In this document: piece by piece, positions 4,324 through 42,915 of the stretch
How positions within the stretch are numbered: the first letter of the stretch is position 1
How the letters are laid out: the number at the start of each line of letters is the position of its first letter
Source: Microbacterium sp. SZ1
Lineage (GTDB): Bacteria; Actinomycetota; Actinomycetes; Actinomycetales; Microbacteriaceae
NCBI RefSeq assembly: GCF_002362255.1
Contig: NZ_LPVV01000004.1
Location: 310,001-374,000 of the forward strand
Direction: 5' to 3'
Length of the DNA stretch: 64,000 bases
The notes under the pieces: model-generated
What the model saw: the letters and a program-made list of their open reading frames with translations, nothing else
What the model was told of the DNA's origin: nothing
The model's database searches: none
Position numbers and translations under genes: made by a program

Positions 4324-6975
4324 ATGATGACAACTGATCAGGTATCCGTCGTGGAGCCTGCGCGCCGCTCGTGGGGAGTGCGGCTGGGCAGGATCGCGTT
4401 CGTCGTCGTCGCAGCGATGATGGTGATCGCCGTCGCCGCCGCGTTCTTCGTGACCTGGACGATTCAACGCTCCTTCCCGCAGGCCGAGGGCGAACTGCGC
4501 CTCGACGGACTGCAGGCCGAGGTGACGGTTCAACGCGATGCGAGCGGCGTGCCGACGATCACGGCCGATTCCTCGCACGACCTCTTCTACGCGCAGGGCT
4601 TCGTGCATGCGCAGGACCGCTTCTTCGAGATGGACTTCCGCCGCCACGTCACGGCGGGCCGGGTCGCCGAGATGTTCGGCGAGTCGCAGGCCGGCACCGA
4701 CGCGTTCCTGCGCGCCCTCGGGTGGCGCAAGGTCGCCGAGGAGGAGGTCGCGCAGATGGATGACGTCACGCGCGGCTACTACGAGGCGTACGCCGACGGC
4801 GTCAACGCCTACCTCTCCTCACGCTCGGGATCCGAACTGTCGCTGGAGTATGCCGTACTCGGCATACAGAACCCGGAGTACGCGCCGGAGCCCTGGCAGC
4901 CGGCCGACTCCGTCGCCTGGTTGAAAGCCATGGCCTGGGACCTGCGGGGCAACATCGAGGACGAGACCGAGCGGGCGCTGCTCACCGCCCGGCTCGCCGA
5001 GGGCGGAGCGGATGCCGCCGAGCTCGACGCCACGCTCGAACAGCTGTACCCGCCCTACCCGTTCGACGAGAACCCCGTGATCGTCCCGACCATCTCGACC
5101 GTGCCCGCCCTCGACACCGGGGCGGAGCCGGCGGCGTTCTCGACCTCCGACGGCGATCCGGACCTGCAGCAGGCCTTGACGACGGTCGACTGGACCGAGG
5201 CCTCCGACGTGATCGAGGCCGCGAGCCTGCTGGTGGGCGACGTCGGCGAGGGCATCGGCTCGAACTCCTGGGTCGTCTCCGGCGACCTCACCGAGAGCGG
5301 GATGCCGCTGCTCGCCAACGATCCGCACCTGGGCGCCTCGCTGCCCTCGGTCTGGTACCAGGTGCAGCTGCGGTGCGCGGAGGTGTCGGACGAGTGCCCG
5401 TTCGACGTCGGCGGCTTCTCGTTCTCGGGTCTCCCCGGCATCGTGATCGGCCACAACCAGCACGTGGCCTGGGGTTTCACCAACCTGACGACCGACGTCA
5501 CCGACCTGTACGTCGAGCGCATAGAGGGCGACCAGTACTGGCGCGACGGCGCGCTCGTGCCCCTCGAGGAGCGCACCGAGACGATCCGCGTCGCGGGGGG
5601 CGACGATATCGACCTCACGATCCGCTCGACCGGGCACGGGCCGATCATCTCGGGGCTCGTCGACGATTTCACCGCCCTCGCCGATGACCCGGAGCCCGGG
5701 CTCGCGGCCGGCGGCGCGACGGCATCCGCTCCTCCGGGCGACGGGGCCGAATACGCCCTGAGCCTTCGGTGGACGGCACTCGACCCCGGGACCACCGGCA
5801 CCGCGATCTTCGCCCTGTCGACGGCCCAGGACTTCGACGACTTCCGTGTCGCGGCATCCCTCTTCGACGTGCCTGCGCAGAACCTCGTCTACGCCGACAC
5901 CGAGGGGAACATCGGCTATCAGACGCCCGGCCGCCTCCCGATCCGCGGGGCAGGCGACGGGTGGATGCCGCAGCCCGGCTGGGACAGCGCGTATGACTGG
6001 ACGGGCTTCATCCCCTTCGAGGAGCTGCCGGTCGTCTACAACCCGGCCTCGGGCTACATCGTGACCGCGAACAACGCGATCGTCGCGGACGACTACGAGT
6101 ACTTCCTCTCGCGCGACTGGGACTACGGCTATCGCGCCGGTCGCATCGCCCACCTCATCGAACGCCGCGCAGCAGCCGGACCTCTGACCGCGCAGGACAT
6201 GCGCGACATCCAGATGGACAGCGAGATGTGGATCGGCAAGCGCCTCGCCAGTGCGATGGACGATATCGACGTCGACGGCGCAGGTGCGAAGGATGCCGTG
6301 GCGCTGCTGCGCGACTGGGACGCGCAGAACGAGCCGTCCTCTGCCGCGGCGGCGTACGCCAACGTGCTGTGGTCGAACCTCGTGCAGAACCTGTTCACGG
6401 AGCGCGACGAGCCGCTTCCCGCCGGCGGTCAGGGACGCCTGTTCACGGTCGTGGGCGCGCTGCTCGACGACCCGGACGACGCGCTGTGGACCAACCCCGC
6501 CATCGACGTCACGGGCAGGGACGAGATGCTCGCGCTGTCTGCCGAGGAGGCGTACGACGAGCTCTCGACGCTGCAGGGCACCGACGTCGACGCCTGGCGC
6601 TGGGGAGACCTGCACGCGATCACCCTCACCAGCGACACCCTCGGCTCGTCGGGGATCGCGTCGATCGAGGCGCTGTTCAATCGGGGGCCCTATGCCGTCG
6701 GCGGCGGCGCCTCGGTGGTCAACGCCACCGGGTGGGAGCTCGGCGTCTCGTACACCACCACGACGGTGCCGTCCATGCGCATGGTCGTCGACCTGTCGGA
6801 CTTCGACGCCTCGACGTGGATCCACCTGACCGGCGCGTCCGGCCACGCGTTCCACGAGCACTACATCGACCAGACCGCCGACTGGGCGGCGGGAGTGCAG
6901 CGCCCCTGGGCGTTCTCACCGGAGGCGGTGGATGCCGCGGCGCAGCGTACACTCGTGCTGACCCCCGGCGGGTGA
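4324..6975 (+). CDS. Penicillin acylase (penicillin amidase) family N-terminal nucleophile hydrolase
   Basis: 883 aa. An N-terminal transmembrane/signal segment (about residues 20-48) is followed by the alpha chain with the family blocks RDASGVPTI, YAQGFVHAQDRFFEMDFRR and ADGVNAYL. The autocatalytic cleavage site is visible at GEGIG|SNSWVVSG, placing the nucleophile Ser at the N-terminus of the beta chain (about residue 316), then ANDPHLG and GLPGIVIGHNQHVAWGFTN. Family members hydrolyse amide bonds of penicillins, acyl-homoserine lactones or other N-acyl compounds outside the membrane. The substrate is not predictable here. ATG 4327 is an equally possible start. It is a single gene, convergent with the MFS gene. 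Confidence 0.9.
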   Translation: MMTTDQVSVVEPARRSWGVRLGRIAFVVVAAMMVIAVAAAFFVTWTIQRSFPQAEGELRLDGLQAEVTVQRDASGVPTITADSSHDLFYAQGFVHAQDRFFEMDFRRHVTAGRVAEMFGESQAGTDAFLRALGWRKVAEEEVAQMDDVTRGYYEAYADGVNAYLSSRSGSELSLEYAVLGIQNPEYAPEPWQPADSVAWLKAMAWDLRGNIEDETERALLTARLAEGGADAAELDATLEQLYPPYPFDENPVIVPTISTVPALDTGAEPAAFSTSDGDPDLQQALTTVDWTEASDVIEAASLLVGDVGEGIGSNSWVVSGDLTESGMPLLANDPHLGASLPSVWYQVQLRCAEVSDECPFDVGGFSFSGLPGIVIGHNQHVAWGFTNLTTDVTDLYVERIEGDQYWRDGALVPLEERTETIRVAGGDDIDLTIRSTGHGPIISGLVDDFTALADDPEPGLAAGGATASAPPGDGAEYALSLRWTALDPGTTGTAIFALSTAQDFDDFRVAASLFDVPAQNLVYADTEGNIGYQTPGRLPIRGAGDGWMPQPGWDSAYDWTGFIPFEELPVVYNPASGYIVTANNAIVADDYEYFLSRDWDYGYRAGRIAHLIERRAAAGPLTAQDMRDIQMDSEMWIGKRLASAMDDIDVDGAGAKDAVALLRDWDAQNEPSSAAAAYANVLWSNLVQNLFTERDEPLPAGGQGRLFTVVGALLDDPDDALWTNPAIDVTGRDEMLALSAEEAYDELSTLQGTDVDAWRWGDLHAITLTSDTLGSSGIASIEALFNRGPYAVGGGASVVNATGWELGVSYTTTTVPSMRMVVDLSDFDASTWIHLTGASGHAFHEHYIDQTADWAAGVQRPWAFSPEAVDAAAQRTLVLTPGG

Positions 6976-6990
6976 CGCGTCCGGCCACGC

Positions 6991-7071
6991 CACCTTCTGC
7001 GGCCACGGTCATGTTCTGCGGCCCAGAGCCGTCCCGTTGGCCGCAGAAGGTGCGCACGGCCGCAGAAGTTG
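6991..7071. repeat. TTCTGCGGCC palindromic intergenic module, copy A
   Basis: Two forward copies of TTCTGCGGCC (within 6991-7005 and 7011-7024) are followed by two inverted copies (7038-7052 and 7056-7071). 6991-7005 and 7038-7052 form a perfect 15-bp inverted repeat. It sits between convergent genes, so it could end both transcripts. The same four-part module recurs at 42834-42915 and a single unit at about 9289-9298. Confidence 0.7.
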
Positions 7072-7093: not shown

Positions 7094-8434
7094 TCAGGCG
7101 GATGCCGCGGCGCGGCGCGCGATGGCCCAGATCCCGACCGCCGCGGCGAGGAAGATCGCGGCCAGCATCGCCCAGCCCGCCGGTCCGTAGGTGATGGCGG
7201 TCGCGTTGACGACGATCGGCGAGGCGAGGGCGCCGAGCGAGAAACCCATGCCGAACACGCCCTGATAGGCGCCGGCGCGCACGGGGTCGGCGAGCTCGAA
7301 GCTCAGTCCCCATGCTCCGGCCTGGGAGAGGATCTCGGCGAACGTGTGCGCCACCATCGCGATCACGAGCACGACGATCGCGACCCAGGCGGGGATCCCT
7401 GCGGCGAGCGCGTAGACGAGGCACGCGGCGACCATGAGCCACCCCGCGACCATGGTCACGCGGCCGGCGACCCGCACGTCGTGCGTGCCGCGCGAGGCGC
7501 GCACCTGGAACAGAACCACGAGCGCGGTGTTCACGATGAGCAGCACCGACACGACGACCTCCGGCGCCTTGGTGTACTCGGTGATCCAGAGCGGGATGCC
7601 GAACTCCGCCACCCCGAACTGCATGCCGAAGACGGCCGACAGCACGGTCAGCAGCAGGTAGCGCGGGTCGCGCCACGGCGAGCGGCGGCTCCAGTCGCGC
7701 CGCGACGCGCTCGCGGCATCCGTGTCGATGGAGCCGGTCTCCGTGCGCACCTCGTGGAGCGCGGTGCGGCTCGGTGAATCCACCGCCGAGGTCAGGCGGA
7801 GGAGCGGCAGCGACCCGAGCGCGCAGAGCAGACCGCCGCTCGCGATGACGATGCGGTACGCCTCAGGCGTCCCGAGCGCGAGGGCGACGGCGCCGAGCCC
7901 TGACCCCGCGGCGATCGAGAGGTTGGTGACCGTGCGCAGCACCGCCCGGGCGTGCACGCGGCGCTCGGGCGCGAAGCCGCGGGCGATGATCGCCGACCGC
8001 GCGGAGTGACCCATGGAGTCGAGGAAGCCGCTGGCGCTGGCGAGCACGAGCGCCGACACGAAGTCCCCCGCGAAGGCGTAGGCGGCGAGCAGCAACCCGC
8101 CCAGCGCTTCGAACGCGAAGGCGAGTCGACGTGCACTCCACCGGTCGGCCATCCAGCCGCCGAGCAGCGATCCGAGCACTCCGCACCCGCTCGAGACCGC
8201 GAGCACCACCGCCGCCTGGGCGGCGGAGAGACCGATGATCTGCGTGAAGAACAGCACCGTGACGGCGAAGAACACGCCCCGCCCGATGCGCGAGACCGCG
8301 GTCGCGGCGACGAGCGCGCGCAGCACCGGGTCGCTCAGGCTCGACGCCAGTCGCCCGAGAAAGCGGGTGGGCTTCGCCGCCGGTCCGACCTCCGGCACCG
8401 TCGTCGTCTCGGGTTCGGGGTCGCGCGAAGTCAC
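7094..8434 (-). CDS. MFS transporter
   Basis: 446 aa with about 12 hydrophobic helices and a polar ~30-residue N-terminus. The cytoplasmic loop after helix 2 reads GGWMADRWSARRLAF, the usual MFS signature (GxxxDRxxRR), and a polar central loop (about 215-240) separates the two six-helix halves. GTG 8434 is preceded directly by GGAGG; a start a few codons later is possible. Proton-coupled efflux or uptake is the family role. Nothing in the neighbourhood indicates a substrate. Confidence 0.8.
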   Translation of the reverse strand: MTSRDPEPETTTVPEVGPAAKPTRFLGRLASSLSDPVLRALVAATAVSRIGRGVFFAVTVLFFTQIIGLSAAQAAVVLAVSSGCGVLGSLLGGWMADRWSARRLAFAFEALGGLLLAAYAFAGDFVSALVLASASGFLDSMGHSARSAIIARGFAPERRVHARAVLRTVTNLSIAAGSGLGAVALALGTPEAYRIVIASGGLLCALGSLPLLRLTSAVDSPSRTALHEVRTETGSIDTDAASASRRDWSRRSPWRDPRYLLLTVLSAVFGMQFGVAEFGIPLWITEYTKAPEVVVSVLLIVNTALVVLFQVRASRGTHDVRVAGRVTMVAGWLMVAACLVYALAAGIPAWVAIVVLVIAMVAHTFAEILSQAGAWGLSFELADPVRAGAYQGVFGMGFSLGALASPIVVNATAITYGPAGWAMLAAIFLAAAVGIWAIARRAAASA

Positions 8435-9277: not shown

Positions 9278-9306
9278 GGCCGTCGCCTTCTGCGGCCCGA
9301 GAGTCG

Positions 9307-41592: not shown

Positions 41593-42819
41593 ATGGCCAT
41601 CGAGCACGTCGACGTCATCATCACCAGCCCAGGACGCAACTTCGTCACGCTCAAGATCACGACCTCCGACGGGATCGTCGGCTGGGGCGACGCGACGCTC
41701 AACGGACGCGAGCTCGCCGTGGCCTCGTACCTTTCGGATCACGTCGCCTCGACCCTCGTCGGACGCGACGAGGACCGCATCGAGGACACCTGGCAGTACC
41801 TCTACCGCGGACCGTACTGGCGCCGCGGCCCCGTCACCATGGCGGCGATCGCCGCAGTCGACATGGCGCTGTGGGACATCAAGGCCAAGAAGGCCGGGAT
41901 GCCGTTGTACCAGCTGCTCGGCGGCGCGAGCCGCGAGGGCGTCCGCGTCTACGCGCATGCCTCCGGCACCGACTACCAGGCGCTCAAGAACGCCATCGCC
42001 GGATACGAGGAGCTCGGCTACACCGCCGTGCGGGTGCAGACCGGAGTGCCCGGGCTCGGTCAGATCTACGGCGTCTCGAACGCGGGCCCCGGAGTGCGCT
42101 ACGACTACGAGCCGGCCAAGCGCTCGGGCGACCGCCCCAGCGAGGAGACCTGGGACACGCGCAACTACCTGAACCACATGCCGGGGATCTTCTCGCGCAT
42201 CCGCGAGGACTTCGGCTCCGATCTGCGAATCCTGCACGACGGCCACCACCGCATGTCGCCTATCGAGGCCGCTCGCTTCGCGAAGGACATCGAGCCGTAC
42301 GACCTGTTCTGGCTCGAGGACTGCACCCCGGGCGAGGACCAGACCGCGCTGCGCCTGGTGCGCCAGCACTCCACCACGCCGCTCGCGATCGGCGAGGTCT
42401 TCAACTCGGTGTACGACTACCAGACGCTCATCACCGAGCGCCTGATCGACTACGTGCGGTCGGCGGTGACCCACACCGGCGGCATCACGGCGATGAAGAA
42501 GCTGCTCGACTTCGCCGCGATCTACGGCATCAAGTCCGGCATCCACGGCCCCACCGACATCTCGCCCGTCGGCATGGCGGCGGCTCTGCACCTCGACCTC
42601 GCGATCCACAACTTCGGCATCCAGGAGTACATGCCGCACAACGAGCAGACGCTCGAGGTGTTCCGGACGTCGTTCACGTTCGACAGGGGCTTCCTGCACC
42701 CGAGCGAGCAGCCGGGACTCGGCGTCGAGCTCGACGAGGAGGCAGCGGCCGGGCACGAGTACACCAAGGCGTATCTGCCGGTGAACCGCCTGCTCGACGG
42801 GACCGTGCACGACTGGTGA
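41593..42819 (+). CDS. D-mannonate dehydratase family enzyme (ManD/RspA-like, enolase superfamily)
   Basis: 408 aa, matching ManD/RspA length. The enolase-superfamily residues are visible: metal ligands in [16 protein letters not shown] and [23 protein letters not shown] and the C-terminal [18 protein letters not shown] and [15 protein letters not shown] blocks are diagnostic of the ManD group. It dehydrates D-mannonate (some members D-gluconate) to 2-keto-3-deoxygluconate. ATG 41593 has AGGAG upstream. It completes the operon begun by the UxuB-like gene. Confidence 0.88.
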
Positions 42820-42833
42820 GCCTCCGCGCGCGG

Positions 42834-42915
42834 CACGTTCTGCGGCCATGAGCACCTTCTGCGGCCACGGCACCCGCCCGTGGCCGCAGAAGGTGACGAT
42901 GGCCGCAGAAGTGAC
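42834..42915. repeat. TTCTGCGGCC palindromic intergenic module, copy B
   Basis: Same four-part order as 6991-7071: forward units around 42834-42849 and 42853-42870, inverted units 42878-42895 and 42900-42912. 42853-42870 and 42878-42895 form a perfect 18-bp inverted repeat with 7-nt loop. It follows the ManD-like gene, so it could end that operon. Confidence 0.75.

Follow-up and report, generated by a model that had tools for sequence, protein, structure and literature searches.

A palindromic repeat and an antitoxin-nuclease fusion protein in Microbacterium: probably a mobile-DNA-like system with a matching repeat family

Between two convergent genes of Microbacterium sp. SZ1 stand two forward and then two inverted copies of the short unit TTCTGCGGCC, and the same module recurs at a distant site of the 64,000-nucleotide stretch of DNA analyzed here (referred to as the window). 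What is this module, and with which gene product, if any, does it belong? The original prediction, made from the letters of the window, saw a repeat family of REP-like design, perhaps a bidirectional terminator or a protein-binding element. The features concerned are as follows (coordinates of the window).

4324..6975, plus strand: penicillin amidase family gene, upstream of array 1
6991..7071, unstranded: array 1, four TTCTGCGGCC units, forward-forward-inverted-inverted, offsets 0/19/44/63, flanked by two convergent gene ends
6995..7004, plus strand: array 1 unit 1, exact TTCTGCGGCC
7014..7023, plus strand: array 1 unit 2, exact TTCTGCGGCC
7039..7048, minus strand: array 1 unit 3, exact TTCTGCGGCC
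7058..7067, minus strand: array 1 unit 4, exact TTCTGCGGCC
7094..8434, minus strand: MFS transporter family gene, convergent on array 1
9288..9297, plus strand: isolated TTCTGCGGCC unit outside any array, probably a chance match
41593..42819, plus strand: mandelate racemase/muconate lactonizing enzyme family gene, upstream of array 2
42834..42915, unstranded: array 2, geometry as array 1; unit 1 starts 19 bp past the upstream gene end, a co-directional gene comes next
42838..42847, plus strand: array 2 unit 1, exact TTCTGCGGCC
42857..42866, plus strand: array 2 unit 2, exact TTCTGCGGCC
42882..42891, minus strand: array 2 unit 3, exact TTCTGCGGCC
42901..42910, minus strand: array 2 unit 4, exact TTCTGCGGCC

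With exact units spaced by 19, 25 and 19 bp at both sites, the predicted common order of two forward and two inverted units was found as described. The 15-bp perfect stem of array 1 was confirmed, and the inner stem of array 2, given as 18 bp, is visible in the sequence as well as in the predicted fold. A further single unit had been noted near 9289 after a gene end; it exists, between two convergent gene ends, but has no second unit within about 120 bp. Compared to chance, the arrangement of the units and not their number is remarkable. Ten matches with at most one mismatch occur in the window versus 5.9 expected, a count reached by 11 of 100 shuffles. A scan of the window for any four-unit array with a period of 18–19, in contrast, gave 60/60 only at arrays 1 and 2 with a runner-up of 44, and no value of 44 or more in the one shuffled sequence that served as control; a reversed-sequence control is uninformative here because reversal preserves the symmetry. 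Rfam gave no match within the window.

The repeat family in the genome and the genus

The source genome (G000; 3.45 Mb, 42 contigs) carries 12 clear and three degenerate TTCTGCGGCC arrays. Exact units amount to 52 genome-wide compared to 32 for the reversed 10-mer; in a tally by coordinates 45 of them lie in or beside arrays, and seven, including the one at 9288, are isolated. The pattern TTCTGCGGCCN34GGCCGCAGAA with up to three mismatches yielded 24 matches per strand versus none for the reversed control, and the arrays follow stop codons, the interior of genes not being their place as a rule. The proposed family of REP-like design, recurring at distant sites, was thus encountered as dispersed intergenic arrays in the genome.

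In a plain list of the units of the source genome, with no spacing imposed, same-direction neighbours within arrays are 19 bp apart in 17 of 17 cases, and the step from unit 2 to unit 3 is 25 bp in eight of nine and 26 bp in the other. Including 42 arrays from seven other genomes, 57 arrays were tabulated by a scan which fixed the spacers at 9 and the loops at 14–16; the loop measures 15 nt in 54 of them, 16 in two and 14 in one, and is near-constant in length and random in sequence. Inner units are nearly invariant, outer units looser, and loops and spacers at most weakly conserved in the 52 arrays that entered the covariation analysis (the other five have a loop other than 15 nt or more than five mismatches), whereby unit conservation in the other genomes is overstated since the patterns used to find arrays there needed near-perfect units. 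Orthologous arrays show the same division. In 24 pairs the units differ at 57 of 960 positions (5.9 %) and the spacers and loops at 352 of 792 (44 %), a contrast that is partly overstated because arrays are detected by their units, and that comes from non-independent pairs of 10 of the 13 orthologue groups (not included are the groups around L065, L071 and L107 and the two arrays L104 and L108:2982).

Within each of the genomes G000, G005 and G133 the closest two TTCTGCGGCC arrays still differ at 10–12 of 33 spacer and loop positions, a result that gives no sign of recent movement for the TTCTGCGGCC family. No target-site duplication could be identified.

The family is present in eight of 149 Microbacterium genomes including the source, and no other genus sampled was positive. 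The pattern TTCTGCGGCCN34GGCCGCAGAA (one mismatch) and a looser three-unit pattern select the same eight genomes, with a control of zero. In a family-wide sample of 398 genomes from 85 genera the two positives were both Microbacterium, and a scan for four perfect units in one genome per species (84,980 species) returned 23 stretches, all of them titled Microbacterium.

Mapping relative to gene ends, one of the checks suggested at the outset, was carried out with gene calls from our own codon-usage script. It placed the 57 arrays between convergent genes in 31 cases, co-directional genes in 21 and divergent genes in three, with one overlapping a predicted gene and one without a left neighbour. 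Compared to other gene pairs separated by 40 bp or more, convergent pairs are enriched (32/55 array-bearing vs 17/156; p 1.5e-11) and divergent pairs avoided (3/55 vs 70/156; p 1e-8). At the locus beside ribosomal protein L17 in the source genome, an array occurs in four of 30 loci (G066, G005, G083 and G000), and the close relatives G088, G021 and G001 are without one. Absence from the orthologous slot in close relatives points towards insertion, or clean loss. As a side observation, two contigs of G066 start within what is apparently the same palindromic array (G066:C47:4-57 and G066:C91:5-58), which suggests that such arrays may break short-read assemblies.

The nuclease gene between two arrays

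Outside the window, the source genome has a gene for a 282-aa protein (G000:C34:189899-190744, locus L071) that lies between two TTCTGCGGCC arrays, the whole array-gene-array cassette spanning G000:C34:189722-190832. Among the Pfam profiles, MTES_1575 and DUF559 pass their cut-offs with this protein and AbiEi_4 narrowly misses its own; AbiEi_4 is matched by 21 of 59 family members. PADLOC and NCBIfam searches gave weak matches or none. An AlphaFold model based on a 59-row alignment (pLDDT 95.6) is predicted to combine two parts. Residues 1–173 match the AbiEi antitoxin 6y8q (6y8q_A; Z 9.4, 170 aligned), in agreement with an AbiEi fold with a DNA-binding winged helix, and the C-terminal domain, about residues 176–282, resembles the catalytic domain of the homing endonuclease I-Bth0305I (Z 12.8; residues 178–280) and Vsr (Z 10.5), with a sequence profile match to 3r3p. 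According to the model, this part is a catalytic domain of the Vsr-type PD-(D/E)XK kind. Its acidic residues E181, D207 and D219 do not vary among 59 proteins and, judged from the fold family, represent the putative catalytic residues.

Close relatives of the protein with 72, 70 and 62 % identity occur in G133, G005 and G117 and are array-flanked as well, the G117 relative being found as two separate pieces with arrays too diverged for the flank-match threshold used below. The array genomes G022, G066, G083 and G116 have homologues of at most 42 % identity. In G116 the slot equivalent to L071 holds one array and no gene. Six arrays fetched from G066 look intact despite only distant nuclease homologues; comparing array decay between nuclease-bearing and nuclease-free genomes is suggestive at most, as arrays are poor in G022 and good in G066. 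Homologues with about 30 % identity were found in one phage and in two Tsukamurella plasmid records; the two plasmid loci show no clear array.

For a broader view, 138 homologue rows from Microbacterium were collected. A search of 35 further genomes contributed 97 rows, from 33 of them, and the eight array genomes gave the other 41, with unequal cut-offs (E up to 0.001 in the array genomes, up to 1e-20 in the 35 others). One place in G117 is counted twice (L196 and L332, both below threshold), L328 and L329 were dropped for lack of a tblastn hit, and one weak G000 match on contig C13 is also absent. In 106 of the 138 rows a 70-bp upstream stretch matches the downstream flank at 44 or more positions, whereas 3.0 are expected from mispaired flanks, a control which itself contains some pairs of one family; 32 rows, the G117 relative among them, fall below the threshold. 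A word count agrees more weakly, with a 9-mer occurring at least four times across the two flanks in 74 of 138 rows versus about 17 expected. Direct repeats of at least 9/10 bases are present in 93 of 212 matched flank stretches, with a distance of 19 bp in 58 and of 18 bp in 29, compared to 11 of 212 control segments inside genes, none at 18 or 19 bp. A de novo four-unit scan with periods of 17–21 gave 1.03 and 0.92 arrays per kb beside the gene, 0.10 inside and 0.01–0.02 further off, the period being 19 in 77, 18 in 41 and 21 in three. Judged by this de novo scan, which is stricter than the flank match, 34 of the 138 rows have arrays on both sides, 44 on one side and 60 on neither. Taken together, the association of arrays with the nuclease gene is solid.

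The unit sequence varies from gene to gene at a period of 18 or 19 bp, and diverges along with the nuclease. Array sequence is shared by both pairs above 85 % nuclease identity, by a fraction of 0.46 of the 41 pairs at 70–85 %, by 0.12 of the 141 pairs at 60–70 % and by 0.01 or less below (50–60 %: 792 pairs). Across 99 rows, array similarity correlates with nuclease identity with a Mantel rho of 0.14–0.20 for the different protein parts, and part 1–60 predicts the unit no better than the others do. A second AbiEi-DUF559-like gene of the source genome (L214, G000:C6:69099-69902) has similar repeats of the GCATGCATC type on both sides.

Explanations for the arrays

Further families allow a view on dispersal. 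A second one with ACAGGTCAACCG ends occurs in nine of 149 genomes and reaches 15 copies in a single genome, the control being zero; a single match in G050 looks like chance. Among 58 arrays of this family in the loci analyzed, near-identical ones (4–6 differences in 44 interior bases) are located at loci without flank similarity, both within and between genomes, and pairs with fewer differences are orthologous, in one locus or share one flank. Alignment of 16 of these arrays shows that the similarity stops at the array edge, plus or minus two bases. Constraint on the interior could contribute to the near-identity; an independent origin of the same 68 bp is unlikely.

The repeats show a REPIN-like pattern, but with a nuclease of another class and no RAYT in the eight genomes, and lack the hairpin conservation described for REPINs (accessible sections of PMC3116915). 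AbiEi-type proteins bind inverted repeats, Rv2827c occupying four at once (accessible text of PMC7319586). For these reasons we interpret the arrays as cognate binding sites and probably mobile cargo. It is fairly likely, in our estimation, that the TTCTGCGGCC arrays are four-site binding clusters and copied solo elements of an AbiEi-Vsr-like nuclease system. Each array would offer four binding sites for a fusion protein whose AbiEi antitoxin part, a winged helix and a second domain, is joined to a PD-(D/E)XK nuclease of Vsr/homing-endonuclease-like type; four subunits would sit on the four units at fixed spacing. The cassette on contig C34 would be the founding copy, and the arrays of the window solo, non-autonomous copies of about 70 bp placed into intergenic slots at gene ends. 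Copying would probably proceed via breaks made by the nuclease, after which the copies would be kept intact. The best reading is that of nuclease-linked, REPIN-like miniature elements. The analysis shows their geometry and dispersal, the empty orthologous slots, the link to the cassette, the parallel divergence of arrays and nucleases and the predicted fold, whereas binding, cleavage and the copying mechanism are inferred. The initial suggestion of a protein-binding element is supported.

Several results count against this explanation. G022, G066, G083 and G116 are without a close cognate nuclease, and the intact arrays of G066 are the main unexplained fact. The stricter scan found both-sided arrays in only the 34 rows given above and none in 60, and no target-site duplication was identified. 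In addition, four solo arrays with other units were compared, near the L17 slot, with the arrays beside nuclease genes that were examined in their own genomes, and one of the four matched: that of G029, at the locus on the L17 side, scores 47 against the array beside one nuclease gene of that genome (four others 26 or less), and those of G064, G016 and G020 reach best scores of 31, 26 and 28 against their own nuclease arrays.

Among the alternatives, the one that fares best regards the arrays as host-maintained sites for a regulator or nucleoid protein, represented by the AbiEi-like part, with the nuclease gene autoregulating via the same type of site and no mobility. Conservation of units in place while spacers drift, as well as the fixed spacing, would fit, and the arrays upstream of the nuclease gene resemble the AbiEi operator arrays described in the available part of PMC7319586. 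Yet arrays are depleted between divergent genes, where promoters lie, distant nucleases seldom share array sequence, orthologous slots in close relatives are empty, and near-identical ACAGGTCAACCG-family arrays stand at unrelated loci, which makes this explanation rather unlikely. Less probable still is that the arrays serve as protection against a selfish nuclease or as decoys for it: bound arrays would hold or neutralize the enzyme, and the loss of units would be harmful as long as the nuclease is present. The conservation of units relative to spacers fits this idea in combination with the putative active-site residues of the nuclease, which do not vary among 59 proteins; the arrays of G066 do not fit, as they look intact in a genome that yielded only distant homologues of the cognate nuclease.

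We judge it very improbable that the arrays are bidirectional intrinsic terminators or hairpins at mRNA 3' ends, the other function proposed initially. Their position after stop codons, the many convergent pairs and the strong predicted folding of the array single strands (z −4.7 to −10.9) speak in favour, the folding being dictated by the inverted repeats themselves. A terminator scan limited to loops of 3–8 (GC-rich stem, short loop, T-run) found no site around array 1 or array 2, and the family is restricted to eight of 149 genomes of the genus. Spacers in the source genome pair in 43 of 99 positions compared to 45.2 after shuffling, without compensatory pairing, and those in other species in 150 of 369, below the shuffled 177.3 (sd 8.6). 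The four outer loop positions pair in 78 of 208 cases with species pooled (59.2 shuffled; p 0.004), with no excess within either group. At the L17 locus a GC-rich stem-loop-like sequence adjoins the array position in array-bearing and array-free loci alike, and the array is thus not the sole terminator candidate there. A hairpin terminator is not supported: spacers lack covariation, a loop of random sequence is almost always 15 nt long, and units are kept while spacers drift in orthologues. Separately, we observed that the two spacers of TTCTGCGGCC arrays in the seven other genomes pair with each other less often than random pairing would give, which looks like an avoidance of long perfect palindromes.

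That the arrays are REP/REPIN elements of the classical kind, mobilized by a RAYT (TnpA-REP) transposase, has only a very small probability. Such elements share the size, the dispersal and, according to the accessible sections of PMC3116915, conserved ends with a less conserved spacer whose length matters. Against them stand four units with an 18–19 bp period, the absence of the compensatory changes that the same source calls common in REPINs, and a search for the associated transposase, advised at the outset, that returned PF01797 in none of the eight array genomes and in one of 149 overall, an array-free one.

Known systems and further unit types

Viewed as binding sites and solo copies of the nuclease system, the arrays have REPIN-RAYT as their closest counterpart in genomic pattern. 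Both comprise short, dispersed, intergenic palindromic repeats with a cognate nuclease gene adjoining and conserved ends around a less conserved spacer (PMC3116915, accessible sections). REPINs are likewise palindromic doublets with fixed spacer length, but TTCTGCGGCC arrays have four units, at 18–19 bp and without compensatory changes, and their partner is an AbiEi-Vsr-like nuclease and not a HuH transposase. Long persistence in genomes is described for REPINs in the available part of PMC8049555.

The N-terminal two-thirds of the protein share the fold of the AbiEi antitoxins of type IV toxin-antitoxin systems, including Rv2827c, whose inverted-repeat operators number up to four (PMC7319586, in the part available). 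Fusion to a nuclease and arrays that occur on both sides of the gene as well as dispersed set it apart, as does the distance of 18–19 bp between units compared to operators with 23-bp repeats and gaps of 3, 4 or 13 bp in the same source. Its nuclease domain belongs to the family PF18741, named after a Microbacterium gene, like the MTES_1575 Vsr-type REase proteins of PMC3710099; there, the domain is found within a large HEPN/transglutaminase multidomain protein, and the parts of that paper covered here leave repeats unmentioned.

The catalytic domain relates the protein by fold and profile to I-Bth0305I and other Vsr-like homing endonucleases. Classic members of this group sit in introns or phage genes. 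In contrast to the I-Bth0305I group, the DNA-reading part of the 282-aa protein is predicted to have the AbiEi fold, and binding-site-like arrays flank the gene, with solo copies elsewhere. In the open-licence literature we found no description of an AbiEi-Vsr-like nuclease with dispersed arrays, and among the matches listed none concerns, by title, a Microbacterium repeat of this kind.

Bacterial repeats that have a cognate nuclease are usually exemplified by REPIN-RAYT; in Microbacterium the same genomic pattern accompanies a nuclease that is unrelated to RAYT and fused to an antitoxin-type DNA reader. Tentatively, and with somewhat more doubt than confidence, this may be a new class of intragenomic selfish DNA, in which an AbiEi-homing-endonuclease fusion spreads four-site arrays of about 70 bp and unit and nuclease diversify together into many families within one genus. 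Many families with differing recognition sequence and one shared geometry would amount to a naturally occurring collection of DNA-binding domains, each paired with its site. The system also lends itself to studying how such small elements are retained at their positions, and it hints at what the multi-copy DUF559/AbiEi proteins of Microbacterium may do.

Arrays of other unit types were observed repeatedly. Downstream of the homologue of a 524-aa gene (L184 and L185), G016 and G020 contain related GTCCCACTTTTGG arrays, and no array matching GTCCCACTTTTGG was found beside the nuclease genes examined in these two genomes. In G066 a GAGCCACCCC-type array (L093:2561) occupies the slot where G116 has a TTCTGCGGCC array. 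Three TGAGACACCA-type arrays with period 19 follow each other about 300 bp apart (L182:3274, 3585 and 3888). On contig C39 of the source genome, GAGCCACCCC-type arrays with period 19 are located at L073:1281, L073:1422 and L074:35, and a perfect four-unit GCCCCTGCTG array, again with period 19, at L073:5351.
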